Source: Mya arenaria | Lineage: Eukaryota; Mollusca; Bivalvia; Myida; Myidae | Length of the DNA stretch: 64,000 nucleotides | Assembly (NCBI RefSeq): GCF_026914265.1 | Contig: NC_069127.1 | Coordinates: forward strand, 17,185,045-17,249,044 | Direction: 5' to 3' | Shown here: positions 23,180 through 62,340 of the stretch, piece after piece | Layout: the number at the start of each line of letters is the position of its first letter | Numbering within the stretch: the first letter of the stretch is position 1 | Program-made: the position numbers and the translations under genes | The notes under the pieces: generated by a model | What the model was told of the DNA's origin: nothing | Database searches by the model: none | What the model saw: the letters and a program-made list of their open reading frames with translations, nothing else

Positions 23180-23400
23180 TTTTGTGTCGCCTGCAAAGCA
23201 TGGCACACATATAGGGATTCATTGTTCGCACCATTGGCCCCAGTAACTTTTAACTTCTAATGTGAAGTCTTCAAACTTGGTTAGCTCATTGGCCGTGGTC
23301 AGGAGATGACTTCTATTGAGTTTGGGGTCAAGGTCATGGTAATCTTTCCTAGAAAATAATGATGGGTCCACTGACAGGCTACACATTCAATACACAGAAT
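23180..23400. repeat. Dispersed repeat fragment (GTCGCCTGCAA family)
   Basis: It shares TGTCGCCTGCAA.GCATG and a following ACATAGGGATT-like block with 46560-46960. It also has a GGGGTCAAGGTCATGG segment typical of the same bivalve-type elements. Confidence 0.5.
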
Positions 23401-24537: not shown

Positions 24538-25600
24538 AGCTCACCTTAGCCGTAGGCTAAGGGTGAGCTATTAGGATCGATGATTGTCCGTCGTCTGTCG
24601 TCCGTCCTTAGTTTGTTAACACTCTAGTGGTCACATTTTTGCCTCAATTGTCACAAACTTTGGTCAGGATGTTTGTCCCAGTAATAAGTCAGACCAGTTC
24701 GAATATGGGTCATCTGGGGTCAAAAACTAGGTCACAGAGCCCAAATATGGAAAAACATTGTTAACAATCTAGAGGTAACATTTTCAGCCCAAATGTCCTG
24801 GAAATTTGTCAGAAAGATTGATTCGTTGATTTCTAGCTCAAGTTCGAATATGGGACATCTGGAGTAAAAAACTAGGTCACAGAGCCCAAATATGGAAAAA
24901 CCTTGTTAACACTTTAGAAGTTACATTTTTAGCCCAAATATCCTGGATACATGTCAGAAAGGTTGTTTTGATGATTTCTAGCTCTAGTTCGAATATGGGT
25001 CATCTGGTGTCAAAAACTAGGTCACAGCCCAAATATGGAAAAACCTTGTTAACACTCAAGAGGTAACATTTTCAGCCCAAATATCCTGGAAATTTGTCTT
25101 AAAGGCTGTTTCGATGATGTCTAGCTCACGTTCGATTGTGGGTCATCTGGGGTCAAAACTAGGTCACAGAGCCCAAATATGGAAATACCTTGTTAACACC
25201 CTAGACGTAACATTTTCAGCCCAAATATCTTGGAAATTGTAAGACGGTTATTGCCCTCTGTATCTTTATAAACAAATACATATTTGTCATGTGTTTAAAA
25301 CACTGGACATATAATAGTTCCACCTATGGTGTATGGAAGGGCAGACAGGTACCATCCAGTATGTAGTCCGATCAATTACTTTAGAACCCTTTGTCCAATC
25401 ATGACCAAATTTGGTCAGAATGTGTATTAACGTGTTTGATGATTAGCAAAATTGCTGTAGTTATCCGAGAGTTATTGCGCTGTAATCATAGAAATTACGT
25501 AAAATTGCTCTTGTCCTATCAATAACTTTTTAAGCATTTGTCCAATCATCACAAAATTTGGTGAGAATGTGAAAGGGTATAAAACATCAGAGAAGCCAAA
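24538..25600. repeat. Hairpin-headed dispersed repeat with ~144-bp tandem units
   Basis: A hairpin (AGCTCACCTTAGCC at 24538-24551, inverted at 24555-24569) is followed by TGTCCGTCGTCTGTCGTCCGTC. About four tandem units follow, with CCAAATATGG at about 24741, 24886, 25029 and 25172, a 143-145 bp period. A less repetitive tail runs to about 25600. Confidence 0.75.
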
Positions 25601-35300: not shown

Positions 35301-38300
35301 AACGAGCGGAACGGGTAAAAACTTGCCCGTACCGGAAGTTTATCAAATGTCAACAGATGAAGTACAATCACGGCCTTAAACGTTTTATTTCGATAAGGTA
35401 GAACATTGTATTCTCATTTTTTTATAGCTGTAAAATACAAAAACAATATTAAATACAAATAAACATAGCAAAAATTGTAGTTATTTCTTTTAAAAGGGTG
35501 CTTGTACGGTAAGAACATTGGTAGTCAAGTTTTTGTTTACATCGAGACGGTGTCGCAGTTGAAAATATCCATCTAAATGTGTCCCAAAATGATCCCGTCA
35601 TTGTCATATTCATCCATAGATATTCTAAGCTGTGTAAAATCACTATGATTTTATTCAATTGATAGGTGGTCCTTGAGCAGTTTAAGATATTTTGAAATAT
35701 ATACTTGTATGTGCAGTACTTTTTAGATTGTATACTGGCTACACGGTTAGTGATTCATTAGTCCAGGCTTCTTTTTTAATGATGTTTAGCCTGGAATATA
35801 CATCATTAAAAAAAAGCCTGGATGACATTTTAGAATGACTAGCTACACTGTATACTATGTGATGTCCCTTCCTCGGGTGTGAATTCAGACACAATTTCTG
35901 TAAATTGATTGCAGTCTTTAGAATTTGCTGGTAGAAAAACCCTTACCATATTTCTAAGAATACTTATTAACATTTCCAGTAGCAGTTGGCCAGTCAATAA
36001 TTTATCGTTGGAGCTGAGCCGATAACCAAGTCTATTTGTCATGAGTTAATTATGAGTGTAAGGAAAGTTAATTACATAAAATTTACCTCATATTCACTTT
36101 ATATACATACACATAGTCGTACAGATACATTTTCCCTTTATCAAGAATTCATATGTATCTTATGAAAACATTTTTGAACATGGTAAACAGATGCTGAGTA
36201 GTCATTCCTTGAACGTTTAAAGACAAGTCGCTATTTCTAGATGGCAAGAAAGAATTCAGCAAATAAATGACCAATAATCATTGATTATTGATGAAAACAA
36301 TTACCGTTGTTTCTAAGGTCTAGTAAGGCTAATAAAAGAACAGAAACAAATAAACAAAGGAAAAAAATAGAAGTGTATTGTTGTGTAAAAAACTGAAATT
36401 CACTCCTGGTCCCGATGTATATAGATTTTATTTGAAGTTTTTTCATTTATGTTGGAAGTGATTTTACGCTGACCTTAACTTAAGGAGTTGCATTAATCAG
36501 CTTTGTGTTATAATCTGACATTGGTTTGCATAAAATATTATATTCAGAAATCTATGTAACTGAAACAAATCTATGATTGCTTAACTTGATAATTACAGGG
36601 AATATTATTAAAATAATTCGCTTGTTCCAATGTTGCTTAACTTGACAATTACAGGGAATGTTATTAAAATAATTCGCTTGTTCCAATGTGAAACAATCAA
36701 TAGCTTACTGGAATTACTGCAATGAATCTGAAAGGAACATCCTGTTGTTGGTCAATACTTCATTGTACTATTTTAAATAAAGTAGTTGCAACTTGAATAT
36801 CTGTGCATTTGTTTTAGAAACCAAAATACTAGTTTTGCAGAGACAGATATTAAAATATTAACATGGCAGAAGCGGACTTAGTTACATTAGATGTTAATAA
36901 GAGGAGATTTAATTTTTCTAATGTTGTTCAAAAGATGTGCTTAAATATCCGCGAAAAGAAAAGTCAAATGACTTTTCCGAATAAGCTAAACAAAACTCGT
37001 GAAAAATGGATCCGGTTATCGGCCCAGCTTCCACAGGCGGTTTCTCTGTGCATGTCAGGTACGAAGCTTGTAGTGAAATAGTCAAATTGCTGCAAAATGG
37101 ACAAATATGAGCATGACTGCAATGATAAAATATTCTTAAAACTAACACTTGTATGTTACATGGTAGCTATTTTGAAACTGAAATCAAGCAATAAACTAAT
37201 GTTGTTTGAATTACCGGTAAATATTAGCTTACTCACAAACATTTGCATTAGAAATTAAAGGCACAACTATGTGTGAAAATTACATCACATTCAATTAAAT
37301 ACTCATTCACATGTGTTTCTACATTTATATAAAGGATTTTAATACAGAAAAAACATCAAATAAGTTTTGTGAAGGGAAATATTTCACTTTCTGCTAAAAG
37401 GTTTGATAGTATTTAACGTAGGAAGGACATGTTGGTTTAAGGTTAATCTATCAATACCACTGCTTAACCTGGTATGGTATTAACTTTCTTGTCAATGTCA
37501 TCGGCAGTTTGGTCACAGGTTTACAAGTGTCATTTACGTATATTGATTTATGAACAACTTGGTTTACAAATTAGATTGCTGATGATCTGTGAAAGTCGGT
37601 GGTTGAAAGTATAAAGCTAGTTACTATCATCGTTATTTCATCTGTGGTGGTGAATGAAAGAGAAAGCATTTCTTTACATTCTTGTTGTTGCTGTTGTTGT
37701 TATATTGATGGTGTCTGAGAAGTGTTATAATGGAGTAAGTGATATTTCAAGGATTTATGATGCTGAAAAAAAGAAACAACGGACATAAATCATGATATGA
37801 ATTTTAACAAAAATGCAAATTGATAAATTATATAAAGTTCAGTCAGTTATTCAAATTCTGTAGAAAATGAAAGATTGATAACAAAGAAATATGAATGAAA
37901 TTAATTTGTATTTGGTATTTTTTTCTCATTATTTTATATATTAATTTGTTTTGAATTTTCATTATTTGGTTTAAATCTAATGATTTCTTTTTATTAAGAA
38001 TTTCTTGAAAACTGAACTGTTCCCTACAAGCACATCATGAATCTCAACATTTATTTATCTAAAGTAAACATTTAAGATGAAATTACCATAATCTACATTT
38101 CCATTTACTTACCTGCAATCTATATGAAAACATTCAAGCTCAGACATGAAGTTCGTCATAGGGAAATCACATAAAAGCTTTGCAAACTGTAGACTTCAAA
38201 AGCTTAGTGTAATAATATAGTATTGATAAATTGGAGATAAAACATAAAAACAAATAGTCAAACAATCAAACATTTGAATTCCAATAATGGTTTACAGTAC

Positions 38301-41300
38301 GGAGAATACATTAACTGTTAATAGTGCGATACATTGGATTTTCTTCATACTTCATGCTGGATGAAATTTATGGTTTAAGTTTTTGTTAGGTCTGGGTCAA
38401 AAACTTTGTGAAATATTTATGCTGTCAATAAATGGAATTGTTCAGAAGTCTGTAAGTATTTGTCCATGCTGATAAAGTCATCATAATTACCAAGGTGTAA
38501 ACATTGATTGATATTGTTATTGTCTCCTGTGTATACAAAGAATGGATTCTTTGGAGTAATTTGAGGTGTGTTCAAGGTCTGAATTTTTCTGCTCCAACTA
38601 CTGATTTTAACAAATACAATAGTTATAATAAGAAGGAGAAGAATATTGATAATAATGATAATAATAATGATATTTTTATGCCCCCTTTTGAAAAAAGTGG
38701 GGTATATTGTTTTGCACATGTCGGTCGGTCTGTCTGTCTGTCTGTCTGTCTGTCGGTCGGTCGGAATACCAAATGGTTTCCGATCAATAACTTGAGAACG
38801 CTTTGACCGAGGGACCTCATACTTGGTAGGTGTATTGGTCATCACCAGCAGATGAACCCTATTGATTTTGAGGTCAGTGGGTCAAAGGTCAAGGTCAGTG
38901 TGACCTTTACATGAAAAACGGTTTCCGATCAATAACTTGAGAACGCTTTGACCCAGGAACCTCATACTTGGTAGGTGTATTGGTCATGACCAGCAGATGA
39001 ACCCTATTGATTTTGAGGTCAGTGGGTCAAAGGTCAAGGTCAGTGTGACCTTAACATGAAAAACGGTTTCCGATCAATAACTTGAGAACGCTTTGACCCA
39101 GGGACCTCATACTAAGTAGGCTTATTGGTCATGACCAGCAGATGAACCCTATTGATTTTGAGGTCAGTGGGTCAAAGGTCAAGGTCAGTGTGACCTTTAC
39201 ATGAAAAACGGTTTCCGATCAATAACTTGAGAACGCTTTGACCCAGGAACCTCATACTTGGTAGGTGTATTGGTCATGACCAGCAGATGAACCCTATTGA
39301 TTTTGAGGTCAGTGGGTCAAAGGTCAAGGTCAGTGTGACCTTAACATGAAAAACGGTTTCCGATCAATAACTTGAGAACGCTTTGACCCAGGGACCTCAT
39401 ACTAGGTAGGCTTATTGGTCATGACCAGCAGATGAACCCTATTGATTTTGAGGTCAGTGGGTCAAAGGTCAAGGTCAGTGTGACCTTTACATGAAAAACG
39501 GTTTCCGATCAATAACTTGAGAACGCTTTGACCCAGGAACCTCATACTTGGTAGGTGTATTGGTCATGACCAGCAGATGAACCCTATTGATTTTGAGGTC
39601 AGTGGGTCAAAGGTCAAGGTCAGTGTGACCTTAACATGAAAAACGGTTTCCGATCAATAACTTGAGAACGCTTTGACCCAGGGACCTCATACTAGGTAGG
39701 CTTATTGGTCATGACCAGCAGATGAACCCTATTCATTTTGAGGTCAGTGGGTCAAAGGTCAAGGTCAGTGTGACTGTAAGCTGAAAAAAGGTTTTCTGAT
39801 TGTCCATATTTTTTAATACCTTTTGCAATTTTTTTAATGCTTAATTGTTTATTTGGAGATCTTTATGAAAATTAAACTTTCAAGCCCAGCACAGCTAGGG
39901 TTACATTTAATGTGTTACAAATGAATAAATTTATTCCGATGGAACAGCATGTTAGCATGAATATTAAGTTTGATTAATTTGTAATATTTATGTAATTATG
40001 AACTCAGACAAGTTTATAAGATATTGTAGAAACTCAGGTCAGTAGATCTTTATGTCCAGCCAAATAGATAAACTGACTTAGTTACAAAAGCTAAAAAACA
40101 AAATAGGGTGCACAAAACACTTGGCACTGATTCGATTGGTTGAAGTGATACTATTCTTTGGATTCAAACAGTGAGCTTTAATTAATGAACATAGTGTAGT
40201 TGATTATTATCAAGAGCAAGATTGGTTGATCACTAGATAAGATATAACTTATTTGTTTTTTTTAAATTTTGAGCCAGATAACGTTTGAATGTTTTCCGAA
40301 AATGATATAAACAAACAATACAACTTGGTAACATGATTTATTGAGTTTTGTTTGTAAGTAGCTCATTTTGACTGAGGCTTAAAAAACAGAACTGAGATTT
40401 AAATGCCAGCAAAATATTAGTATAGGTGGCAAAATGGAAACACAGACGGCAGTTATTTTTGCTGGACTTTCTTATTGTAGGTGTTAAACTGACGTCAAGC
40501 ATTTTGATACAATAATTAACTTTATGACCTTCTTACGCATAACCATGGAGAATTTTTCTGTTATTACATCATGATTGATTTTCAAAATAACACTACATGT
40601 ACATGTATAAGTGCTTTAGTAGTGTTTCATTTAACAGCATTTAGATGATTATCTGCTCTTTATTTTCAGACATCCTGGAAGATGAGGGGCGTTCTACAGG
40701 AGTTGCGAAGGCGGAACAGTTTGTGAGAGACCAGCAGCATAACGAGAACCAGGAGACCAACACCGCAGGCAAGGAAGTCACATATACCCCTACCAGGGCC
40801 AGCAGGAGTTTTACACATCCTCAAACCAGGGCAGGTATGGATACAGGGAATGGTGACAATGTGCTAAGCCGGGAGGAGAGTGAGAGTAGCATTCATTTGT
40901 CTAACAAGTACGAGGACCTTGTTCGAAACCAGCTGACCAGCAGCAAAGGTGCCATGTCTGGAAATGAGTCTGAGTCTGAGCTGAGCCAAAGGCTGAAGAC
41001 GGATTTCCCGGACTTGAATGGTAGAGGAACGCCAGTAGGGGAAGATAGCGTCAAGCAGTACCAGGATGGGGATGACACCCTATTGAAGTCCATGGACATG
41101 GGACATGTGTATAGATCTGAAAATGGACTTAACGGAAATAGCGAATCATTTAAGAACTCATTGTTAGATGATTATCTTGAGAAACGCAGCGTTCAGTCAA
41201 ATGACTCACTTGGACGTGGTGGCAAATCTTCCCCAGTTGTGATAGACGATGTGTTAGGCACTGGACATTCTAGAACACCAATATACAGCACAGAGAGCCC

Positions 41301-44300
41301 AGTTGTTTCCAGGCACAACTCGGCTCACAGTTCTGCTAGGCATACACCCCTGGACAACATTGATCGTCCAGCATCAGTCAACTCCTTGCATTCCAAACAT
41401 AGCTCAGCACGTCAGACACCAGTGCTCTCTGATGATGTGGGGAGACCAGACTCTAGTGCCTCCCAGCCATCCCGCCACAGCTCTGTCCTAGGCTCTGCCA
41501 GACAAACACCCACCGAGGGCCGGGAGCATGGCAGACCAGGGTCTGCAGAAGGGTCTGTACATTCAGGGAATTCTGTAGGCAGACATGTGCTTGATGAGCT
41601 TATTACTGATGCACTTGGAAGGGAGAACAGGTCTCCATCTAGAGAGGGATCAACCAATGGCAGACCAGAGTCTGTAGGTTCCGCTCATTCTAATGACTCA
41701 AGCAGACAGAGAATCAATGAGCTGATAAATGAAGCATTCGACAGCACTCGCCAGGCCAGGTCAGCATTATCAGAGAGTTCCGGAACAGGGTCCCAGATTG
41801 GATCACAGTCAGGGTCCAGACCCCGCACACCCCAGGAGCAGATAGGGGACGTACTCAGTGCCGCTGACAGGCATTCTCCAATAAGGCGGGATTACTTGAA
41901 TGGTTCTCCATATGGCTCAAATATGTCTGTTACTAGTGCAAAATCTGCTCATGAGTCCTTACTTGGCTCTACCCACAGTACCCCTACCCGTGGATCAGTT
42001 CAAGAGTCAAAACACAGCTCAGTGGCTGGGTCTGCCCCAGGGTCCCAACGACAGACTCCTCAGAGGGAACTGATCCACTCCACCCTAAATGCAAGCCAGG
42101 AGAAACTGTACCAGTCCACAGATGTCCGTAAGTTAGTTGGCAGTGATTATGCAGGCAGCAATGCCAGCAACCAGGGCTCCCGACCGCAGAGTGTGACAAG
42201 TGAGCAGGAACTCACCCAGTACTATGAAGGGGTTACGGAAGGGGCAAGACAGGGGTCAAGAACTGCCAGTGCTTCCAGTCTGCCTGTTATAGGAGCCGCA
42301 CAGAGGTACACCCCAGACAAGCGCAGTATGACCCCTGATGGACATGTGAGGGTCCCTTTTAATCCTGTATCAAAGAGCCCCCTGCTGCCACCCCGTACAC
42401 CACAGTCTAACACCAGCAGTCGAACAGTCACACCCATGAATGGTGAAACAGAATCAGAGATGAATCTCCGTGAGGTAATCCCCATTTTGCCATATGTACA
42501 TCAATGTTGTGCTCAGTTTGATTTATTTAAAAATGAATTTGCAACATATTTAAAACCTACAACATATTTTTTTATACAGTTTTAATGCCTAATCTGTAAG
42601 ATTAGAAATAATCTTTTAAAAATTAAATGTCATGTACATTTAATCTCTTTTTCTTAAGCTTTTAAATGATCTAAGGCTTTTCCTTCAAGTTATTGTCTGT
42701 GATACAATGGTATGCATCTTTCTTTGTTTTTTATCATGCTGAGCATGCAATTTTCCATCACAGCAAATCAAAGATCTGGACAGTTTAATCCTGAATCTCC
42801 GCAAGCAGCTGAACAACCGAGAGCAGGAAATGAGTGAAGTACGCAAGCTTCTGGAGGATTCAAGGGAGACTAATCAGCATCTGCAAGGCGAGACTGATCG
42901 ACTTAGGGCAAGAGCATCCCCTGGGCCACAGATTGGCGAGGTATGTAAAATATGCATATCTGTTCACTGTGCTAGAAGTGTGGGGTTAAGGGTTTTTTGT
43001 TTGACACCATACTAGGCTTTTACCTTATTTCATATTATAAAACTGTGCCCCATTGCATTAAAGATTAAGTTTTATGATGGTGTCATATCATTATTTTGCT
43101 ATGTAAGTTCTATAATTATGTTTTTGTGAGAAATGAACATAAACCAGAATGAAATTAAAAACATCTGACACATATAAAATAAATATTTTGTTGCCATCTG
43201 GGATATTTGTAAGTTACAACTAAGCTCCTTTAATGAAACCAGCCCGTAATTCTGATAATTAAGTCTTCATGTAAAAAAAATACTTCACTTAAATCTCGGT
43301 ACTTATTGTCTTAATAGTACAAATATTTTTTAGCCTGATTGAACCAAAAGATGATAACCTTATAGGGTGTCGCTCAAGTCCATTTCCATAGTGGAATCAA
43401 TATTGGTGTCCTTTTCAAGAGACCAAGAGAATGTACATCATGTGGCTGGATCCAACAATTCTTGTATGCAAGGCAGACTTTCATGCCACTCTCAAACTTT
43501 CTGTTTATTTCAGTTGGAGCGTCGTCTGGTTGAGATGACAGAGGATCGTGACAGTCTTACCCAGGAGGTTGCCCGTTTAAAGGAGGAGGCAAAGCTGCGG
43601 AATGAGCCCGGGCTCAACAGATACAACCCAAACAGCCCAACCACTCTCCAGAGGAAGATAGGTAAGTGAATCAGGGGACTATATTCATGAAGCCTTAATA
43701 ATATTAAGATTTTTTTTTTTTAAACACTCCAAATGAGGGAATTGAGTAATTCAATTGTAATTAGCTTGTCTGTGTTTCGAAGAAAAAATGTTGTGATATT
43801 ATGGTAACCTTGGTGTTATTGTCAGCATTGGCATTCAATGATGGCCATATATATATTTGATGTATAAAATATTTAAATGAAGTTCAAAACACATGTTGCC
43901 AGAAACAATACCCACATGTAAAGCAAGACCCATAACTCTGTCTTTTATTAATGTTTTGCCTCTTGTATTCCTGAAAAAACAGTTCTTTGACCTTTAATAC
44001 TATCATAGTAAATCTTTTCAACTTCTTTTTTTTAAAACTGAACTATTTAAGACTAAGTCTGAATACAATCCCTTGATGTTTTATAATAAGATAGAAAATA
44101 GATTGGCAAATGGCAATTTGGCTTACACATCTATGTTTACAACTTATATGGTTCATCTCACAGCTTGGTTATGCAATATCACGCCAGGCTTAAAAATTAT
44201 GTTAATCATTGTGTGTATTTACATGAAGATGAGCTGAAGAGCCAGGTACAGGACCTACATGAGGCTAATGAGGCTGCAATGGAGGAGGTGCGTGCAGGAG

Positions 44301-47300
44301 AGCGGCGCATAAAGGAGCTAGCAGCAGAGAAAGAGACACTCCGTGTCACCCAGGACGACCGAACACGTGACCTCCAGGAAGAGGTCAGACACCAGCGGAC
44401 TGAGGTAGGCCTAGGGGCACTTATGTTTTCCTTAGCTATTGCAATACATTTGAGCTTAATGTGTAAGACAGATATAAGCTAATCAGGGGGATACTCTACT
44501 GCATGGCTATAAAAGCTAGCTCAACAGAATGGGTGTCAAATGCACAAGCCCTTGGGTGAGATGTGAACACTCCAGACCACTCTCATGGCCAGACCGCTCT
44601 CACATCTTGCTTTTGTTTTGTCTAGCTCTAACTTAAAGTAAAGGCATTATACAAGTTTATAAAGTTATCGGGAACATTCTGAAAAACAAAGTGATGTTAA
44701 AAGATTTTACGGAGTGTACATGTTTGAAGATCAAAATGAGATATTTAGTTAGGAATTCATTTTGTAGATGGTAGATTTGATATACCAGAACTTTTGTTGA
44801 ATGTCCCCTTTACTTTAATTTCCCTTCAGCTTACTCGACTCAGAGAGCACAGTTCAACTTACAACGAGGCTTCCGACTACAGAACCAAGATAGAGCTGCA
44901 ACAGATCAAGGAAGATAACCGCAATCTAAGGGAGAGAAATTACCAGCTGCACGATGACAATATCAGGCTCAAGGAAGAGTTGTCTGACCTGAGGAAATCC
45001 CTGGAGCTGGTGGACAGTGCAAGAAAGTCATACAAGGATGAGGGGAGGCGATCTCTCACAAGAATGGATGGATATGACAAGAAAGGTATGGGTCTAAACT
45101 CATGGTAAGCTCTAAGGGACAAAGGTATAATAAGCAGAATGAAACTGGTAATGTTTTAGTTCAGTGTGATGATTGTTACAATACTTAAAATATGTAAGTG
45201 CAAAAATTTGTCTCATATTTTCTATTAATGTTTTCAATTTTAGGAACAGCTTTATAGAAGGATATGAGTTTAAATTAATGTTTTGAAGATTTTCTTTCTA
45301 GTTTTTGACAAAGCCTTTTTTTTCAAATACAGAAGACCTCGAGAGAGAGCAGACAAAAAGACGATCTGACCCGCTAATAGACATCAGCTACACGAGGCAG
45401 ACAAACACTGGCAAACCCCAGTACGAGACCCGCACAGACATCAAACTTGCAGACCTACCTGCCAGCACAGACAGGCTATCCAAGTTGGATGCTTACAGGT
45501 CTGAGGATAATGTTTTTAGACATAGATGATACTTTAATTAGTAAAAGACTTTAACTTTGATGTAAAAGGATTGTTTTCAGTTACTCAGAAATTTGTAATT
45601 TTAACACGTGATAAATAGATTTAAAACAAATCTAAAATACTAAAATCTGAATAGTTAATTAATGTTGATGAAAATATGATAACCGGTAATGGAAGAGTAG
45701 TTTTCCCATATCATAATTGTACATGAATATCCATCCAAACAAAGTATATGTACACCATGTACAATGCTCTAGTTTTTTCTTTAGAGAAAGACTTTTGTTC
45801 ATTTTGCATGAACTGCTTCGCGAAGTGACATTTTATTGCTGCATTGGACAAATGTGATCATTAGACAATGTTTCAAATATAGGTGGTTCCTTTTAACAGA
45901 CTTTGTATATCTAATCTAATTTAACCGACATAATTTATACTTTTAATTAAAACATACAAAGTAAAAATGTAACAATATGAGTTTGATTCATATTTTTCAT
46001 TCAGTATTAAGGCTTTGGCACGATTTTGCAAAACATACCTAGAAGGGCTTAGATTTAATCCCTTACATCGAATGTGATTTCATTTGGTAGGTATGAAAGT
46101 TACCGCACAGGCCCAGATGGGAGGTCAGAGGAAAAGTTACGCTCTTCACTGTCCTTGACTCGACCTTTGACCCCGGAGAAGTCTAGGGGTCGTCATCGCA
46201 CAAGCTCTGCTGAGCTCGACTTCCGATCCATGCCTCTATCCGCATACAATTCTGACATGTCTAAGACAACCCCGAACCTGAGTGGCCGATCCAGAGGTCA
46301 GTATTGGAGTGTTTGCTTGAAATTAAATCTTAAAATATATATTTCCTTTGTAATCAAGATGCATATTCTAATGCAGTAGTAGAATGTAAGCAATAGGTCT
46401 GTGTGTAAATATAAACAAAATTTTCAAATGGTATGTACAGAATGTATATTTTTGGTTTGTAACGTGTGGACTTTATTATTTCTGGTTTTATATCTGTTTT
46501 GATTCTTCCGTAAATATGATTTTGTATAAAGTTTATTTTGCATTCTATTAGATGTTTTATTCTGTCGCCTGCAATGCATGAGAGATACATAGGGATTACT
46601 TTGTCTGCCGTCGTCCTCAGCATCACACTTCGCTTATGATCAATAATCTCTGAACAACTTGCAGTGGTTGAAATTAGCAAAAGCCCACAAGCCCTGCACT
46701 GGTAAAATGCTTTCTGGGCTTGCTCAAATTCTGGATTTGATATAGCAGGGCTTTTTCAAAAATTTGATGCCAAGCAATAATATAAAAGTTCGGGCTTGTT
46801 CATACAAAAGTCCAATTTCGCTGACTGAATTTGGTGCAGAGTCTTTAAACTTGGTATGGACATTGGGTGTGGTCCGTTTATTATTCATATTGATTTTTGG
46901 GTTATTGGCAAGGTTATGGTAACATTGACTTCAAAAAATAATAGGCAGTCCAGACAGGTGACACATGCAATTGGCTGCGATTCAGTTGGTTATGTAGCCA
47001 GGGAATACATGCTATATAGAAAAATCTGATCTTTTTAAACAAAGAAGGAAACTTGACATTGTAGCCATCTACGACCAGATATCAAACAAAAGGTCAGGTT
47101 CAAGGTCAAATATGGAAGGTCAGGAGGCTACCATACCTGAACACACTTGTGAGTCAGCTGATGACTTTAATACCAAGTCTATGCATACTGATCATACTAA
47201 AATGCATCATGAACTGCAAGAAAATAAACCTGAAAATGAGTGTGGTGTCCGTGTGAAACAAACTGATCAAATTGCTGAAAGAGTTGGTGAGGGCCAGTCA

Positions 47301-50300: not shown

Positions 50301-52140
50301 GTACGGTGACCACACGACCCCTCATCACCCAGCACAACAAATCCTCACTCTCACTCTCCACCAGGTAAAGGCTTGTTGCTGTAACTGTCGTTAACCTTAA
50401 TAGATTGTAGATAAGTCTTCATCGAACGGCGACTTGCGATGTAGTTTCTACTTTCAAAGTATCTCTACTCCAGAATGCTGAGTAGAAAGCACTGAAATGT
50501 TCATTGAGCTATTGTTTCTGTGCTGAAAGCTACTGAGTTGAACTTATCAGTTATTGAAGTTATTTCTTTTTCAGTTGTCATCATAACTTATAAAAAAGTG
50601 TCAGAGTTTGCATCTTGACAAAACCAAACATATTATTTCCCATATGTGTGTTCCAGCCTGACCTCCTTGACATCTGGTCTGCGACCTTTCGCCCCACGTA
50701 GCCCTGGAGATCTGCAAGTCAACGACGTTATCAAGTTTTCCCGGCAAGGCGGCAAGTTGAGCCAGGGCACCATCAAGTTCATTGGGCACTTGCCAGGACG
50801 CGGGGACATCTACCTGGGCGTCGAACTGGACAAAGAAGGTACAGACTGGGGTTTATTTAGGGTCACATATTACGTCAAGAAAGGGGTCAACTGCTACTAA
50901 AATTGCTTTTTTAAATAACATGGGTGTGTGTCATTCCCTTGTTTTAAAGATGAGACATTTTTTTGTTTTCTGCATCTTAAGATGCAATTACCGTATGCAT
51001 GTAATGATGAAATTATATGTACATGTTTATTTTGGGGGAGGGGGGCAAATATAAGTAATGATGATATCTGTGCTATAATAGCTCATCAGGTATATGTAAA
51101 TCCACCTGTATGTTCATTTTTGTGTGCAATAGATCTGATACATGTTGCCGTGTAATGATTTAAAGGTTGGTTAAAACATATCTAATATGTATCATGAGGT
51201 CTGAAAATGAACCATTTACATCCATGTTTAAAACTTTTGCACACTTTATTTCAGATGGAAAACATGATGGTGTTTTTGAGGACATTCGCTATTTTAAATG
51301 GTACGTCATTTTAATTTTCAGTGATATATGAAATAATATACAATTACTGACTAAGGTACCATTGAATATGATGTGATATTCTGGTAGGAAGTCATATTGA
51401 CCAAGGCACAGTCTAGGGCAGTGTTTTTTCACCAGTGAATCACACAGATTATATTCTGTTATTCCCTAGTCAACAACTGTTTTATTATATAAAAAGAGTA
51501 ATTTCATATCCAAGTGCATCATAATCACACAAGACAAAATATCAAGCATTAAATGTTTATGATAAAGCTGATAAACATGCCCTTTAACAGTCTTTTTCAA
51601 TGACATCATTTCTTGAATAACATCATTTTCGACTTCATAAAAAGTAGGTGGTATATGACGTCGCTGGCTTTCACCAAGCTACGTCCGCCCAACGATTGTT
51701 TTGTAACTGATAGACAGGGTATCATTTGGGCGCTATCTATAGGCCATGAATATGAAAACCCAACCTCATGAAATATTGAATATATTTTGCATTGCCCATT
51801 ATGCTTTAGACCAACTAAGAAACTGTTTATAGGTCATAAAATTAACATAATTATGAAGCTCTACATGTATTTTCTAAATTCCAATTGAGTTACTGAACAA
51901 ATTTTTGAAGTTCAACAATAAATGGTTTGCATAATAAATGATATAATGTTAAATGTAAATTCGAGTGTAGTCTATATTTGCTTATATGCAAAGTACACAT
52001 TGGAAAATACTATTAAAGGCTTTTAAATGCAAGTGGCACTTTAATATTCAAGATTTGCTATGTTTCTCGATTTCAGTAAGCCAACCAAGGGTGTATTTGT
52101 GGCGTACAATAAGGTTGTGATGGCCTGGACATCATACTGA
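29122..52140 (+). CDS. CAP-Gly domain, coiled-coil protein (long form), about 16 exons
   Basis: The likely joins are 29122-29128, 32520-33997, 34621-34798, 40670-42474, 42764-42940, 43514-43661, 44229-44404, 44830-45085, 45333-45498, 46091-46296, 48465-48530, 49384-49626, 50214-50364, 50657-50838, 51255-51300 and 52077-52140. They keep phase throughout and give about 1782 residues. In order it shows an acidic Ser/Thr-rich N-terminus (to about 440), a possible CS/p23-like beta sandwich (about 455-554), a Ser-rich low-complexity block (about 555-1156), coiled coils (about 1157-1400), basic Ser-rich linkers, and a C-terminal CAP-Gly domain (about 1705-1779) with GKHDG. CAP-Gly domains bind microtubule and EB-type C-terminal tails, so a microtubule-associated role is inferred. 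I do not recognise the vertebrate orthologue. The 29-35 kb part could be a separate gene. Confidence 0.75.
29149..29390 (+). repeat. (CAT)n trinucleotide tract
   Basis: About 27 uninterrupted CAT units (29149-29230), then interrupted CAT/CGT/CAG units, and a second pure run at 29301-29335. It begins 20 nt after the candidate first-exon donor. ORFs through it are only poly-His, poly-Ile or poly-Met readings. Confidence 0.95.
29916..30082. mobile_element. 167-bp MITE with TA target duplication (Tc1/mariner/pogo type)
   Basis: The ends are CAGTCGGACCCCG and the inverted CGGGGTTCGACTG, with further inverted similarity (CTCGAACTC / GAGTTCGAG) for about 28 bp. The flanks are TA on both sides (29914-29915, 30083-30084). 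There is no transposase inside, so it is a non-autonomous element. TA duplication plus CAGT ends is the known pattern of the mariner/pogo superfamily. Confidence 0.8.
32520..33997 (+). CDS. CAP-Gly gene exon 2: long acidic exon
   Basis: It is open for 1478 nt after TATATTTGCAG. It is rich in Glu, Asp, Ser, Thr and Asn, probably disordered, with a short charged helix near LEDIERAKEAFITCIKEKRE. The last 45 codons change character to Cys/Trp/aromatic residues (ACCRYRWERTIFTQATSVVF), which look like the start of a folded domain continuing in the next exon. It ends phase 0 at AAG|GTAAAC. The length makes chance openness very unlikely. Confidence 0.85.
34621..34798 (+). CDS. CAP-Gly gene exon 3: possible CS/p23-like domain
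   Basis: It starts DIEPIKLSWSEGSRCFYSDE and ends HYTFEVDLYLKD. The pattern of an N-terminal W, a central strand pair and a terminal xVDLxLKx strand resembles CS (CHORD/Sgt1, p23) domains; this is fold-level inference only. Donor GACG|GTAAGG leaves phase 1, which fits 40670. A second donor, GTGAGT at 34815, would change phase. Reading on without splicing meets TGA at 34816. Confidence 0.75.
34815..34995 (+). repeat. (GTGA)n then (AGTGA)n microsatellite
   Basis: About 34 tandem GTGA units (34815-34950) turn into 5-bp AGTGA units (34947-34995). It starts 17 nt after the end of the exon ending at 34798. Every unit forms GTGAGT, a near-consensus 5' splice site, on the gene's sense strand. Confidence 0.95.
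35040..35190 (+). repeat. Degenerate (AATC)n simple repeat
   Basis: Interrupted CAAT/AATC tetranucleotides follow the GTGA tract. The ORF 35020-35292 across it is an Asn/Gln/Ser/Ile artefact of the repeat. Confidence 0.7.
35763..35821. repeat. 22-bp-stem hairpin
   Basis: The left arm 35763-35785 and right arm 35800-35821 are inverted copies, with one extra base in the left arm, around a 14-nt loop. The ends are CCAGGCTT and AAGCCTGG. This suggests a tiny MITE remnant or a stable RNA hairpin in the intron. Confidence 0.75.
36577..36688. repeat. Tandem duplication of 56 bp
   Basis: Two adjacent 56-bp copies (36577-36632, 36633-36688) differ at only two positions. They lie about 175 nt upstream of the alternative first-exon ATG, so they may be in its promoter. 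Confidence 0.9.
36863..37058 (+). CDS. Alternative first exon of the CAP-Gly gene (short form)
   Basis: AACATGG is a strong start context. The exon encodes 65 residues (MAEADLVTLDVNKRRFNFSN, then a Lys/Arg-rich part ending QAVSLCMS) and a donor CAG|GTACGA. It leaves one base, G, exactly the phase of the acceptor at 40670. Joined there it gives a protein of about 1293 residues without the acidic and CS-like N-terminus. No acceptor precedes it, as expected for a first exon. Transcript evidence is needed to confirm it. Confidence 0.55.
37082..38660 (+). other. CAP-Gly gene intron, AT-rich
   Basis: I see no exon and no large repeat in this 1.6 kb; there are only short A/T runs and a (GTT)n-like stretch near 37682-37700. 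Confidence 0.5.
38675..39780. repeat. 145-bp tandem array (7 units) with nuclear-receptor half-sites
   Basis: After an imperfect hairpin (TGCCCCCTTTT.../AAAAGTGGGG) and GTCTGTCTGTC come seven units starting near 38775, 38921, 39066, 39211, 39356, 39501 and 39646. Units 2/4/6 share one set of variants and 3/5/7 another, so the array is really a 290-bp higher-order repeat. Each unit ends with half-sites AGGTCA, GGGTCA, AGGTCA, AGGTCA, TGACCT at spacings 2, 1, 0 and 3 (first module 38871-38906). Confidence 0.9.
40670..42474 (+). CDS. CAP-Gly gene exon 4: large Ser-rich exon
   Basis: It encodes about 602 residues starting (D)ILEDEGRSTGVAKAEQFVR and ending SEMNLRE. It is dominated by Ser, Arg, Gly and Thr with recurring HSSARQTP/HSSxxGSARQTP-like motifs about every 35-60 residues. 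These are potential proline-directed and basophilic kinase sites typical of disordered microtubule-associated regions. The acceptor is TTTATTTTCAG and the donor GAG|GTAATC; phase 1 in, phase 0 out. Confidence 0.93.
42764..42940 (+). CDS. CAP-Gly gene exon 5: coiled coil
   Basis: QIKDLDSLILNLRKQLNNRE and on to LRARASPGPQIGE. Clear Leu/Ile heptads. The acceptor is CCATCACAG and the donor GAG|GTATGT; 59 codons, phase 0-0. Confidence 0.92.
43514..43661 (+). CDS. CAP-Gly gene exon 6: coiled coil
   Basis: LERRLVEMTEDRDSLTQEVA then a helix-breaking Asn/Pro segment (RYNPNSPTTLQRKI). The acceptor is TTTATTTCAG and the donor GTAAGT; ends phase 1. Confidence 0.92.
44229..44404 (+). CDS. CAP-Gly gene exon 7: coiled coil
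   Basis: ELKSQVQDLHEANEAAMEEV continues in charged heptads to EEVRHQRTE. It is phase 1 in, phase 0 out at GAG|GTAGGC. The acceptor TACATGAAG is pyrimidine-poor, but phase and coiled-coil content support it. Confidence 0.87.
44830..45085 (+). CDS. CAP-Gly gene exon 8: coiled coil
   Basis: LTRLREHSSTYNEASDYRTK leads into heptads (LQQIKEDNRNLRERNYQLHD) and ends in a basic Ser segment. The acceptor is CCCTTCAG and the donor AAAG|GTATGG; ends phase 1. Confidence 0.9.
45333..45498 (+). CDS. CAP-Gly gene exon 9
   Basis: EDLEREQTKRRSDPLIDISY followed by a Thr/Tyr-rich linker ending RLSKLDAY. Its last two bases plus the first base of the next exon make an Arg codon, confirming the junction with 46091. 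Confidence 0.87.
46091..46296 (+). CDS. CAP-Gly gene exon 10: Arg/Ser-rich linker
   Basis: YESYRTGPDGRSEEKLRSSL and on through SRGRHRTSSAELDF to NLSGRSR. Basic, Ser/Thr/Pro-rich, likely disordered. Donor AGAG|GTCAGT, phase 1. Confidence 0.87.
46560..46960. repeat. Dispersed repeat fragment (GTCGCCTGCAA family)
   Basis: It opens TGTCGCCTGCAATGCATG, with ACATAGGGATTAC and CTGCCGTCGTCC, as at 23180-23400. It lies in the intron between exons 10 and 11 of the CAP-Gly gene. Confidence 0.5.
47065..47373 (+). CDS. Possible cassette exon of the CAP-Gly gene
   Basis: A 309-nt stretch (103 codons) is bounded by AG at 47063-47064 and donor CTTG|GTATGG. It is open in exactly the frame set by the exon ending at 46296, and leaves the phase needed at 48465. 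It encodes a hydrophilic Glu/Asp/His/Lys-rich segment (EHTCESADDFNTKSMHTDHT...). The acceptor is pyrimidine-poor and part of the stretch borders a dispersed repeat, so it may be fortuitous. Confidence 0.3.
47374..48464 (+). other. CAP-Gly gene intron
   Basis: About 1.1 kb, AT-rich. The open reading after 47373 (to 47615) is Phe/Leu/Cys-rich and looks like intron read-through. I see no other feature. Confidence 0.5.
48465..48530 (+). CDS. CAP-Gly gene exon 11: short basic exon
   Basis: It encodes GERCLLDRGDNFRRKENSRE and ends EKG. The 66-nt length is a multiple of three with phase 1 in and out, so it could be alternatively spliced. The acceptor is GCCATTTCAG and the donor AGG|GTAAAT. Confidence 0.75.
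49384..49626 (+). CDS. CAP-Gly gene exon 12
   Basis: FDVRQSQQLSAAYQDDGNMS through SWRHRQRRGSAGSDASNSSF to KRSKSADGR. Ser-rich and basic; 243 nt, phase 1 in and out, so skippable without frameshift. Confidence 0.88.
50214..50364 (+). CDS. CAP-Gly gene exon 13
   Basis: ILRRMGPTGMTSGEKTLSRT and on to LITQHNKSSLSLSTR. A basic Ser/Thr-rich linker just before the CAP-Gly domain. It ends phase 2 at CCAG|GTAAAG, completing Ser with the next exon. Confidence 0.88.
50657..50838 (+). CDS. CAP-Gly gene exon 14: first half of the CAP-Gly domain
   Basis: After FAPRSPGDLQ comes VNDVIKFSRQGGKLSQGTIK and FIGHLPGRGDIYLGVELDKE. The G-x-I-x-F/Y-x-G pattern and the GVELD strand are the CAP-Gly signature. The acceptor is GTTCCAG and the donor GAAG|GTACAG. 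Confidence 0.95.
51255..51300 (+). CDS. CAP-Gly gene exon 15: GKHDG motif
   Basis: A 46-nt exon encoding DGKHDGVFEDIRYFK and two bases of Cys. GKHDG corresponds to the GKNDG tail-binding motif of CAP-Gly domains, with His for Asn at the third position. Confidence 0.95.
51301..52076 (+). other. CAP-Gly gene intron 15
   Basis: AT-rich; I see no repeat array or extra exon in it. Confidence 0.5.
52077..52140 (+). CDS. CAP-Gly gene exon 16: end of the domain and stop
   Basis: It completes Cys and encodes KPTKGVFVAYNKVVMAWTSY with TGA at 52138-52140. The CKPTKGVFV strand is typical of CAP-Gly C-termini, so the domain sits at the very end of the protein. Confidence 0.95.
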
Positions 52141-57984: not shown

Positions 57985-58478
57985 GACACCAGGGTAATTC
58001 TTGTTGTATGGTTTCGTGTTTGTACACCGGGGTAATTCTTGTTGTATGGTTTCATGAATGTACACCAGGGTAATTCTTGTTGTATGGTTTCATGAATGTA
58101 CACCAGGGTAATTCTTGTTGTATGGTTTGGTGAATGTACACCAGGGTAATTCTTGTTGTATGGTTTGGTGAATGTACACCAGGGTAATTCTTGTTGTATG
58201 GTTTGGTGAATGTACACCAGGGTAATTCTTGTTGTATGGTTTGGTGAATGTACACCAGGGTAATTCTTGTTGTATGGTTTCATGAATGTACACCAGGGTA
58301 ATTCTTGTTGTATGGTTTGGTGAATGTACACCAGGGTAATTCTTGTTGTATGGTTTCATGAATGTACACCAGGGTAATTCTTGTTGTATGGTTTGGTGAA
58401 TGTACACCAGGGTAATTCTTGTTGTATGGTTTCATGAATGTACACCAGGGTAATTCTTGTTGTATGGTTGCGTGAATG
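57985..58478. repeat. 38-bp minisatellite, 13 copies
   Basis: The unit begins CACCAGGGTAATTCTTGTTG and recurs every 38 bp exactly (57990, 58028, ... 58446). Variation is confined to a 3-bp site (TTGG/TCAT/TCGT before GAATGTA). The minus-strand ORFs here are repeat artefacts. Confidence 0.97.
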
Positions 58479-61029
58479 TTTATCACCATTTTAACTGTGT
58501 ACACTCACTCTCATTTGTAATAAGTATGATTATTTGATTTTGAAGCACTGCTGTGATACTTATAACGTTCATGTTATAAACTATGAATATAAAAACTGAA
58601 TGATCTCTCTTTGTTGTATTGTTAATTTACACGTACCATTCACGGTATGTTGGACCACGAAATTCACGAATCACATTTTATCACAAATTTGTAAAAGGTG
58701 TGATCACGAATTAAACAAATCGATTCATTATAAAAATGTACGCTCAAACAGAGGGTAGGGTGGGGGAGATCGAATATCCAAACGCAGTTTTTCACCAAAA
58801 ATGTTCTAAATGTCTTCTGCATTTAATACTTTCGGAAGCCTGTCCTGTAAGTTTGTCCGTCTGCCGGTTGCCATGTTTCCAATCGCCTGACTTTTACACA
58901 CTGGAATACTATTTCTTTTCAATTTGATTGACAGTAGTTGTTTCGCCGGGTGCATTAAAATTCACTGGACAGAGGACGGGGTTGGGATGGTGATTGGAGG
59001 GGGTGGGGGCATGGCGTGCATCAGCCCTCGACCCACCAGAGCACGCGGTGTGTCGCACTCAACATCAGCATCCCAAGCAAGGCAATGAAAGTCGATGGGA
59101 AAGTTTATATTTATTGTGAAAAATGTGCTTTCTGGCAAATTGTCTTCGTTGACGAGAAGAAATACTAGAAATGAAGAAATTGACTTATTTATATCACGCA
59201 CAAACTTCACACAAAAATGCGGTCTAAAAAGATACATTCTGCCCAAAATGGTCATACATCTAGGGATTCCTGTTGGCGTCGATGACGGTGTTGGCGTCAT
59301 CAGATAAACACTGTGCAGAATTTATCATCCATTCGCGAAGTAACTTGGTCACAGTGATCGTAGGCATACTGTTGCGGTCAAATTCGGTCGGTGGGATAAT
59401 CTTCCGAGTAATGCCCTATTTACAATAAAATAGTAAGTTGACATCTCGAGACGACAAGAAGTATTCAAAATGTAACTTGTTGGCAGTGTTTATGATCACA
59501 ATGTTGAGGTTACGTTGGATAGGCAGAAACACCGGGGATGTAGGCCCCCTTTTTACATAACTTTTTTATCATGACCTGATGTAAGGTATGTTAGTGAAGC
59601 CAATTCTCATTGACTTGTTGAATGCACCTACTGTAATTTAGGCAAACATTTTGGGCTTATCAGGTGGTGAACCTCTTCCTGTGAATTTTGTTGTACTGAC
59701 GGCTTTATGACCCACGGAAATTATGGAAGCAGTAGGCGGGGCCTGAGTTTAAAGCAGTTATTTAAGCCTACGACCCCTAATGATGAGGTTGTACCCCCAC
59801 TCTCTTGCGTACCAAATACTCATTTAATTTCGAACCAAATCCTGCGTTACAAATAATACGGAACTATTTTGAGAGTCTGCGTACCAGATAATTTCAAATA
59901 TTGAGATTAATCGAACCTCTTGAAACACGAGAACTTTTTAAAAACACGCCTGAATATCGCGTTACAATAAGTGGGTTGAAGGTTCAAGCTGATGAAGAAT
60001 TTGTCTCCTTTGACGGACAGTGTGATATAGATGAATTTATGCTGCTAATGCTATTATTATTATTATTATTGTTGTTGTTGTCGTAATTGGTAGTGTTGTG
60101 TGAATTTTTAATTGAAATGCACAAACAGTAGCGAGGCAAACAAAAATGGTTTGGTAACTTAATCGAAATAAATGAAACTAAACCGTTGATGACGCTTTAA
60201 TCAATACAAAAACAAAAACAAAAGTAATCATTGTTAACCTCAAAGTTACTATTGTTTAAGAGACAATAGACTTCAAATTCACTATACGAATTACTTCTAC
60301 ACATTAAGATATTGTGAGCATATTAAGTGGGATTTTTGAGTGACTAAGAACAACAAAGGCGTATTATCTTTATCGAATACATTTTAACCAAATAATAAAG
60401 GAAGATATTCCGGAGAATGCCAGAAGAACATCGATAAGTAAGTTATTTACCTGTTTTGTATTGTACAAAAGGGAAATATGATAACCACAACAAGGTTAAA
60501 TTCTTTTCACATAAATATCTGCTTAAAGATCAGAAAAAGTATGACATAAAATGTTGTACATTTTTTAATTGTTCCTACTCGTCGAAGTTCTGTATCAAAA
60601 TAACTACCCTGGTTGTTAAAATTGATGAGACGGCATGTCCCGATAATGTCGTGGTCACATTTATAGTACAGTTCATTATCATATACTGAATTATACACAC
60701 ATATTTTTTTTTTAAAAGGCACACAGTATAGGTTGATGCAAAGAAATGTTTTTAATTCTAAATCATTTTAATGCATTTTACTCATTGTACAAATAATGAT
60801 CAACAATATCAATTTGTGTGCAAATAAAACATATAAGCGATATTTTGGCGCTTTTTAACAAGAAAATTTGTGGATAAGTCCCTTTTAACACATTTTTTTT
60901 ACGTTTGTGAATGCTAATATTTGTTCACCTGTACACAAATCATATGCTTTTTTAATTTTGATCGTTTGAGTCAATTGAGTTAAAAATGCTAATTCAACCG
61001 GGCCTAAAACTTCCATGGGTTTCATGTGT
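58479..61029. other. Intergenic region, no supported gene
   Basis: Short ORFs only, for example 58962-59300 minus and 59901-60086 plus. The latter ends in a (TTA)n/(TTG)n microsatellite at about 60046-60082. No family resemblance or splice logic found. Confidence 0.5.
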
Positions 61030-62340
61030 TGGCGTTCTGCCTACACATGTTGGTAGGTTCGACATTGTTGGCGTCGCGCCTACACATCGGGTGGGTTCGA
61101 CATTGTTGGCGTCGCGCCGACACATGCGGTGGATTCGACGTTGTTGGCGTCGCGCCGACACATGGGGTGGATTCGACGTTGTTGGCGTCGCGCCTACACA
61201 TGGGATGGGCTCTACATTGTTGGCGTCGCGCTGACACATGGGGTGGGTTCGGCATTGTTGGCGTCGCGCCGACACATGCGGCGGGTTCGGCACTGTTGGC
61301 ATTCCGCATACGCATGGGGCGCATTCGGCGTTGTTGACGTTTCCCATGGGAACGCCGACACATGGGGTGGGTTCGACATTGTTGGTGTCGCGCCTACACA
61401 TGCCTACACATGGGGTGGGTTCGACATTGTTGGCGTCGCGCCTACACATGGGGTGGGTTCGACATTGTTGGCGTCGCGCCGACACATGGGGGTGGGTTCG
61501 ACATTGTTGGCGTCGCGCCGACACATGGGGTGTGTTCGACATTGTTGGCGTCGCGCCGACACATGGGGTGGGTTCGACATTGTTGGCGTCGCGCCGACAC
61601 ATGGGGTGGGTTCGACATTGTTGGCGTCGCGCCGACACATGGGGTGGGTTCGACATTGTTGGCGTCGCGCCGACACATGGGGTGGGTTCGACATTGTTGG
61701 CGTCGCGCCTACGCATGGGGTGGGTTCGACATTGTTGGCGTTGCGCCTACACATGGGGTGGGTTCGACATTGTTGGCGTCGCGCCGACACATGGGGCGGG
61801 TTCGGCACAGTTGGCATTCCGCATACGCATGGGGCGGGTTCGGCATTGTTGACGTTCCTCATACACATGGGGCGGGTTCACATTGTTGACGTTCGCCATA
61901 CGCATGGGGCGGGTCCGGCATTGCTGACGTTCCCCATACGCATGGGGTGGGTTCGACATTGTTGACGTTCCCCATACACATGGAGCGGGTTCGCATTGTT
62001 GACGTTCTGCCTACACATGGGGCGGGTTCGCATTGTTGACGTTCCCCATATACATGGGGTGGGTTCGGCATTGTTGACGTTATGCCTACACATGGGGTGG
62101 GTTCGGCATTGATGACGTTCTGCCTACACATGGGGTGGGTTCGCATTGTTGACGTTCCCCATACACATGGGGTGGGTTCGGCATTGTTGACGTTCTGCCT
62201 GCACATGGGGTGGGTTCGGCATTGTTGACGTTCTGCCTACACATGGGGTGGGTTCGGCATTGTTGGCATTCCGCATACGCATGGGACGGGTTCGGCATTG
62301 TTGAACTTTCCCCATACGCATGGGGTGGTTTCCATGTGCT
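61030..62340. repeat. GC-rich 38-bp minisatellite, about 34 copies
   Basis: The unit starts ACATGGGGTGGGTTCGACAT and ends with TGTTGGCGTCGCGCCGAC. The left part (61040-61800) keeps GGCGTCGCGCC; the right part (61800-62340) is a variant with GACGTTC(C/T)(C/G)CC. It is much more GC- and CpG-rich than its surroundings. Long ORFs in several frames of both strands are products of a stop-free unit. Confidence 0.95.

Follow-up and report, generated by a model that had tools for sequence, protein, structure and literature searches.

An array of nuclear-receptor-like half-sites in Mya arenaria as the central repeat block of a probable Helentron-type transposon, with signs of constraint on its DR0 core

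In a window of 64,000 nucleotides from the bivalve Mya arenaria (RefSeq assembly GCF_026914265.1, contig NC_069127.1, positions 17,185,045 to 17,249,044), a tandem array of AGGTCA-type half-sites had been described in a first-pass annotation as a cluster of nuclear-receptor response elements in an intron of a CAP-Gly gene. Here we conclude that this array very probably makes up the central repeats of a HINE, a non-autonomous member of the Helentron class of rolling-circle transposons. The explanation that we favor, and that we regard as likely when taken as a whole, is that a HINE landed in the intron, that a pair of directly abutting half-sites (direct repeat without spacer, DR0) was under constraint while the element was spreading, and that the landed copy is idle. 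The first-pass annotation thus read the letters correctly and with care, but these are the letters of a repeat and the transposon setting was missed, leaving its interpretation as a whole partly supported.

The array occupies 38771-39794 on the forward strand, with a period of 145, 7.1 copies and 95% matches (TRF), and profile matches likewise recovered the seven 145-bp units. As previously annotated, the units carry seven modules of five half-sites, which a motif scan placed on the forward strand at 38871-38906, 39016-39051, 39161-39196, 39306-39341, 39451-39486, 39596-39631 and 39741-39776. Each module is 36 bases long, and modules 1 to 6 read AGGTCA-nn-GGGTCA-n-AGGTCA-AGGTCA-nnn-TGACCT, so that their direct repeat with one spacer base (DR1), their DR0 and their inverted repeat with three spacer bases (IR3) match known types of receptor site. 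The IR3 is intact in modules 1 to 6 and broken in module 7, which ends in TGACTG; since the GTGACTG tail of module 7 is also present in other copies of the element, it is a feature of the element and not damage at the window copy. An inverted repeat without spacer (IR0), TGGTCATGACCA, is found in units 2 to 7, and unit 1 reads TGGTCATCACCA instead. The reported number of more than 40 half-sites holds under a relaxed definition (47 matches to RG[GT]TCA on both strands), of which only 27 are strict AGGTCA. The half-site density of the unit is far beyond chance, as a unit of the young type contains six RGGTCA words on both strands against 0.30 in dinucleotide shuffles, and none of 2000 shuffles was as high. 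In the rest of the window (38601-39800 excluded), AGGTCA occurred 44 times against 32.3 expected, so that the excess of half-sites is local.

The borders of the mobile element were identified by homology to loci on three other contigs (C10, C13, and C14). At these loci, the homology begins at a T run followed by ATGCCCCCTTTTGAAAAAAGTGGGGTATA and the left flanks are unrelated, and on the right side the window and all three loci share ...GATTGTCCATATTT, beyond which the window sequence is its own and the other copies continue into one of two longer tails. From the shared start, and the shared right sequence followed by divergence, we placed the ends at approximately 38675 and 39813, so that the whole element, an early-ending copy on the forward strand, spans 38675-39813; both ends lie inside T runs and each is uncertain by 2-3 bases. 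Its left part contains, all on the forward strand, a 5' subterminal inverted repeat (subTIR) ATGCCCCCTT at 38678-38687, which is the reverse complement of the 3' AAGGGGGCAT in canonical copies, a short inverted repeat GTGGGGTAT facing it at 38697-38705, and a GTCT/GTCG microsatellite at 38719-38762 (TRF). The facing repeat was read by eye and compared with its reverse complement, and six of seven bases are paired in ATGCCCC / GGGGTAT. On the right, a short tail lies at 39777-39813 (forward strand), ending in ...GATTGTCCATATTTT. Published accounts of HINEs list subTIRs, a facing inverted repeat, a microsatellite, central repeats, a 3' palindrome, a preference for TT and strings of T at the borders (PMC4067079, PMC7492417), and several oyster HINEs are described with a GTCY, GTCC or GTCK microsatellite at the corresponding place (PMC7492417).

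The right ends of 38 young-type copies fall into several classes: eight have a canonical 3' end, 24 run on into a shared linker, four show an early or other join (the window copy, L046, L068, and L088), and two are cut in the array. The tail of the eight canonical copies consists of the 3' subTIR GGGGGCATAAATG, the palindrome ATGTTTCACTAACAT and then TCTCTTGT, and in these copies TTTATGCCCCCTT at the 5' end matches its reverse complement at the 3' end. Left flanks ended in T in all 38 copies and canonical right flanks began with T in seven of eight, which would agree with insertion at TT as expected for such elements. The run-on into the linker was seen in L001, L040, L042, L049 and others; in L040 and L049, the two linker copies followed to their end, the linker continues into a short, related second element which ends in GGGGGCATAATGTTTGACAAACAT (GGGGGCATAATGTTTGACAAACATCTCTTGT) and carries the palindrome ATGTTTGACAAACAT. 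The shared linker together with the second element looks like a read-through capture that then spread as one unit. The window copy (39785-39813), L046 and L068 stop at the same place, about 16 bases past GAAAAAAGGTTTTC, a possible short stem-loop as judged by eye. This common end point suggests an alternative stop more than random damage, and the shared early end is perhaps an alternative stop of rolling-circle replication.

Unit-like repeats were present in 55 of 55 sequences (50 loci sampled by a 5' anchor and five others). No stop-to-stop frame of at least 40 aa starts and ends within 38882-40077, and four frames of 70-154 aa enter from outside across the left end and the microsatellite. 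The genome contains 85 matches to Helitron_like_N, several of them in open frames of 1,505-2,468 aa, and these candidates for autonomous partners indicate that an enzyme source exists in the genome; such enzymes presumably move the HINE family. What weighs against the assignment is that the window copy has the 5' subTIR only, the 3' subTIR and the palindrome of canonical copies being absent.

The assembly searched comprises 1.216 Gb in 18 contigs, and a query of 330 bases found near-identical arrays at other loci. The module, written as 29 fixed letters with at most three mismatches, gave 18,921 matches (9,649 + 9,272) and the 5' anchor TGCACATGTCGGTCNGTCNGTC gave 1,382 exact matches, with 0 matches for either reversed control; these numbers include duplicated assembly segments and are therefore approximate and possibly inflated. 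Although the letters of the array in its putative CAP-Gly intron were described accurately, its setting is more aptly taken as that of one transposon copy among thousands. The 50 loci (L039-L088) were sampled by their 5' end and come from 100 of the 1,382 anchor matches; the exact anchor is blind to the repeats but biased toward less decayed copies. Exons encoding zf-C4 domains on C1, C2, C4, C8, C12, C14 and C16 often came as two copies with identical or near-identical scores, separated by 0.3-2.3 Mb on the same contig; these pairs resemble haplotype segments that the assembly failed to collapse, and they may have inflated copy counts. A module scan of viral contigs, the sole cross-species collection scanned, gave 0 matches. 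Similar repeats are presumably present in other bivalve sequences.

Since young units hardly vary, they say little on conservation or on selection after insertion; the window copy itself is too young for a test of constraint, and old copies were used as stand-ins. The 120 old units include a few units of a third family (L039 and L061) and ten from L028, a locus retrieved via the module itself; L047/L048 and L057/L058 share left flanks and are non-independent, and 225 of 524 profile matches with fewer than 110 aligned columns, many of them reverse-strand self matches, were left out. The first-pass annotation had proposed comparing the conservation of the half-sites with that of neighboring bases. 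In this comparison, the DR0 pair showed excess conservation, with a weaker signal at the adjoining TGACCT, and the module as a whole, half-sites 1 and 2 and the IR0 did not. The DR0 core AGGTCAAGGTCA, located at 38886-38897 (forward strand) in module 1 and recurring in each unit, is the best conserved part. The least diverged windows of 15 and 19 bases in the 120 old units both begin at CAAAGGTCAAGGTCA and fall on the DR0, and the least diverged window of 27 bases spans the DR0 stretch through TGACCT. Among 117 old units, the DR0 was intact in 61 and the IR3 in 49, and among all 120, the IR0 was intact in none, the DR1 in 37 and the full IR3 in 49. Mean divergence amounted to 0.101 in the half-sites and to 0.168 outside the module (p 0.006 by permutation of sites). 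Between the young and old consensus, half-sites were kept at 29 of 30 positions compared to 2 of 6 in their spacers (p 0.0012) and 75 of 107 in all other usable columns, spacers included (p 0.0015). On the genome scale, the DR0 core followed by GTGACC, the latter belonging to the IR3, had 13,866 exact 21-letter matches versus 6,840 for an equal-letter control upstream.

A third family with the same 145-base period, represented by seven units in L039 and L061, aligned without internal gaps to the other two. While 64 of 137 shared columns are invariant over the three family consensuses, the longest invariant run, AAGGTCAAGGTCA, comprises 13 bases and is the DR0 pair (permutation p 0.0016 for the longest run). 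The third family retained 12 of 12 positions in half-sites 3 and 4, 2 of 6 in half-site 1, 4 of 6 in half-site 2, 3 of 6 in half-site 5 and 3 of 10 in the IR0. The DR0 is thus kept in all three families, whereas the IR3 persists in the young and the old family and has been lost from the third.

The timing of the constraint was read from a tree built on 145 columns, with 114 old units drawn from 19 elements; L039, three units of L061, CpG columns and the ends of the units were left out. Changes were scored by the Fitch method on tips, which mostly represent the time after landing, and on internal branches, which mostly represent the time of spreading; units inside arrays are non-independent and some loci are duplicates of one another. 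On internal branches, the DR0 core had 11 changes against 34.6 expected from base-matched sites outside the module (0.32, p 0.0003), compared to 64 against 85.8 on tips (0.75, p 0.03), and the contrast between tips and internal branches was significant for the core (p 0.009). The half-sites taken together had 40 changes against 70.6 on internal branches (0.57, p 0.0055) and 145 against 175.3 on tips (0.83, p 0.038). After correction for scanning, the internal minimum remained significant (p 0.015), whereas the tip minimum did not (0.57 and 0.63). Changes per site on tips and internal branches were 3.67 and 1.17 for half-site 5, 5.80 and 1.40 for the spacers, and 6.28 and 1.90 for the upstream block. 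These counts suggest, somewhat more strongly than not, that the propagating DR0 core was under constraint, and we read landed copies as decaying near-neutrally. A split into private and shared variants was also tried, in which variants confined to a single element were as frequent at the core (10/1775) as elsewhere (60/10361) and shared variants were threefold rarer at the core; this split agreed with the tree but was dropped because recurrent changes count as shared at approximately 10% divergence, and the tree count replaces it.

In the explanation that we favor, the HINE would have arrived in the intron with its array ready-made, in which case the half-sites would owe nothing to the surrounding gene. 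A host DNA-binding protein reading DR0 or TCAAGGTCA-type sites would help the element in germ cells, possibly by opening or transcribing it, and Rep/helicase from autonomous Helentrons of the same genome would move it. We infer that the constraint acts via such a host reader while the element multiplies. After landing, the copy would decay almost freely, so that the copy in the putative CAP-Gly intron would most likely be without a dedicated job. Extended half-sites of the TCAAGGTCA type serve monomeric receptors, ERR and FTZ-F1 among them. That the reader of the DR0 is a nuclear receptor is a tentative proposal which we consider less probable than its converse; AGGTCAAGGTCA is described as the DR0 response element of NR6A1/GCNF, a human protein (PMC7724306), and the genome encodes nuclear receptors, with 95 zf-C4 matches counted by exon, duplicated segments included. 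According to a review, members of every nuclear-receptor subfamily are expected in molluscs, where the estrogen receptor (ER) is constitutive and does not bind estrogen (PMC7827873). In view of the NR6A1 match and the constitutive mollusc ER, we regard a germ-line orphan receptor as a better candidate than ER or RXR, and the estrogen wording used for the array appears weak. In its boldest form, which we consider rather improbable, the idea would be that tandem DR0 sites were retained in the Helentron family through their recognition, while the element spread, by an orphan receptor of the germ line that resembles NR6A/GCNF or NR5/ERR. With thousands of such sites now in the genome, this family could then account for the majority of the receptor's sites, titrate the receptor and provide nearby genes with ready responsive modules.

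Alternatively, the DR0 core could have been kept for the element's own DNA work, such as recognition by Rep/helicase, recombination of the array or single-strand folding, with no transcription factor involved, which we consider an unlikely but serious competitor. As single-stranded DNA, the young unit is predicted to fold better than all 200 shuffles (-24.3 kcal/mol, z -3.85), the predicted structure comprising a long stem formed by CTTTGACCCAGGGACCTCA with TGAGGTCAGTGGGTCAAAG, and at the IR3 a hairpin whose pairs were 83% kept in old units. The array also matches its own profile on the reverse strand (67-69 bits), and a concentration of the conservation on internal branches is what any function at the level of the element would produce. 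The long stem, on the other hand, had 60% of cells paired in old units compared to 56% when slid by one base and 20-42% at other slides, and foldback is not favored as the main cause of the conservation since this stem is poorly kept. Ungapped dyad symmetry of the whole unit (62 matches) did not exceed that of shuffles (mean 56, maximum 68), though the partial reverse-strand matches are strong. Moreover, the third family keeps the DR0 and neither IR3 nor IR0, indicating that the hairpin is not what is kept there, and a need of Rep for two copies of AGGTCA is unexplained.

It is also conceivable, if rather doubtful, that there is no function at all and that conservation of the core is mimicked by uneven mutability, by gene conversion between units and by descent from a few master copies. 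Several results speak for such a mimicry or weigh against constraint on the DR0. A stretch just upstream of the module, also of 29 letters with at most three mismatches, had 20,281 matches compared to 18,921 for the module, so the module as a whole shows no genome-wide excess; this control overlaps half-site 1 by three letters and the IR0 by four, and both upstream controls include GACC of the IR0. In old units, the spacers were no more diverged than the half-sites (0.102 vs. 0.101), the half-site mask ranked only 5th of 145 rotations, and 29 upstream bases were kept between the young and old consensus as well as the half-sites (27/29 vs. 29/30, p 0.61). In the tree, half-sites 1 and 2 changed 6.45 times per site on tips and 2.09 times on internal branches, much like the sites outside the module (5.74 and 2.31), and for all half-sites the contrast between tips and internal branches was p 0.064. 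Distinct shared alleles at the DR0 core were not reduced (p 0.29-0.79), the arrayed units are non-independent, and the core is A-rich, with A/T sites changing less. Finally, the DR0 core was initially chosen in the old units that also served for the tests, although the three-family run is a partly separate comparison. What speaks against the absence of function is that base-matching still left internal changes at 0.32 of expected, that the longest run over three families falls on the same 13 bases, and that half-sites were kept so much better than their spacers between the young and old consensus.

It is very improbable that the array serves the CAP-Gly gene as a host enhancer read by nuclear receptors, or that it is a receptor sink kept by the host: the perfect DR1, DR0 and IR3 sites, the 95 zf-C4 matches, the passive titration that 13,866 exact cores make arithmetically possible and the slight depletion on tips (core 0.75, p 0.03; all half-sites 0.83, p 0.038) would fit, but near-identical arrays lie at unrelated loci, young copies hardly vary so that selection after insertion is not yet visible, and the tip depletion of old copies fails scan correction (p 0.57-0.63), leaving the proposed enhancer role for the host gene without support. 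A sink for receptors on the scale of the genome is still conceivable.

The gene context of the array is itself only plausible. A putative first exon has an ATG near 36863 with a donor-like CAG|GTACG, and an open frame at 40645-42585 encodes 646 aa, for which a Pfam search gave no match; a partial CAP-Gly match in 50619-50899 reached 24.0 bits, below the cut-off of 26.5. The stretch at 37500-41900, covering intron and exon, is present three times on one contig at 99.9-100% identity, the two other copies on C6 being at approximately 708.6-713.0 kb (+) and 750.5-754.9 kb (-). These two lie in inverted orientation some 40 kb from each other, at a distance of 16.5 Mb from the window. This triple near-identical stretch is either a very recent duplication or an assembly artifact.

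Elsewhere in the window, two old decayed single units of the superfamily of the array unit were aligned on the forward strand at 23267-23353 (nhmmer 34.1 bits, E 3.8e-10) and 46837-46938 (28.9 bits, E 1.6e-8). Arrays at 8623-8934 (128 bp) and 24696-25238 (145 bp) follow GTC-rich stretches and hold GGTCA words, with three RGGTCA per unit in the latter (p 0.003) and one in the former (p 0.25); half-sites as a general trait of such arrays are thus suggestive and not general. An array of units of approximately 67 and 74 bases lies at 15228-19256 and contains the words GTGGTCTAGTGG and GGGTTCGATCCC, tRNA-like by eye, and ARAGORN found no tRNA in 15000-19500. Two 38-base minisatellites at 57986-58479 and 61027-62303 have long open frames on one or both strands. 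Across the genome, a related word TCAAGGTCAAGGTCA, absent from the window's own unit, had 4,608 matches (reversed control 12), and among the matches listed its spacing was about 145 bases in some arrays and 63-65 bases in one. The latter, on C1 at 15,345,827-15,346,546 with mostly 63-65-base steps, is apparently a different tandem family with the same DR0.

These results turn a claim about a single intron into a testable claim at the genome scale, and what deserves further attention is the DR0 core, together with the neighboring IR3, as a property of the element and not of the intron. Should a host factor read the DR0, one family of central repeats would gain a job in the life of the element, and it could be predicted where the binding sites of the receptor lie in such genomes. 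As a caution, any receptor-site scan of this genome would be swamped by the repeat and its 13,866 exact cores.

HINE-like elements are known from several bivalves, and the account of them in PMC7492417, as far as it was available to us, gives no role for the central repeats. A term search of the main texts of PMC7492417, PMC8268682 and PMC11136912 found no mention of receptor-like half-sites, the matches being to reference titles or unrelated references only. Among titles and the starts of abstracts, searches for AGGTCA with tandem repeats and bivalves returned only a paper on Pdx and insulin, for GGTCAAGGTCA in molluscs only work on thyroid receptors, for Helitrons with nuclear-receptor binding sites in tandem repeats only a review on sexual development, and for nuclear-receptor half-sites in mollusc transposable elements nothing.

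Like the element described here, the Pacific oyster HINE/Cg_HINE and the bivalve Pearl (CvE), MgE and DTC84 elements are described with a 5' subTIR and a facing inverted repeat, often with a GTC-type microsatellite, a short repeat array, a 3' subTIR with palindrome, and dispersed copies, whereas their repeat unit is approximately 160-170 bp compared to 145 here (PMC7492417). DINE-1/Helentrons and mite HINEs share the order of parts, the T-string borders, an apparent TT preference, the microsatellite and the central repeats, and their genomes contain autonomous Helentrons, candidates for which are present here as well (PMC4067079). Mite HINEs are described without the facing inverted repeat, which oyster HINEs and DINE-1 have, followed by the microsatellite (PMC4067079, PMC7492417). 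The conserved core contains, letter for letter, the DR0 site AGGTCAAGGTCA known for human NR6A1/GCNF (PMC7724306). DINE-1 and mite HINEs belong to other phyla and resemble our element in their parts. In Drosophila miranda, ISX elements derived from DINE-1 spread the MSL recognition site, and here, too, a probable Helentron-type element spreads a candidate protein-binding motif; the ISX sites were recruited by the host for dosage compensation, whereas in M. arenaria it is the element in the course of spreading that seems to be constrained. In mammals, Alu, MIR and ERV copies carry nuclear-receptor half-sites and likewise seed AGGTCA-type sites, whereas here five such sites are packed into 36 bp of each tandem unit of a probable rolling-circle element.

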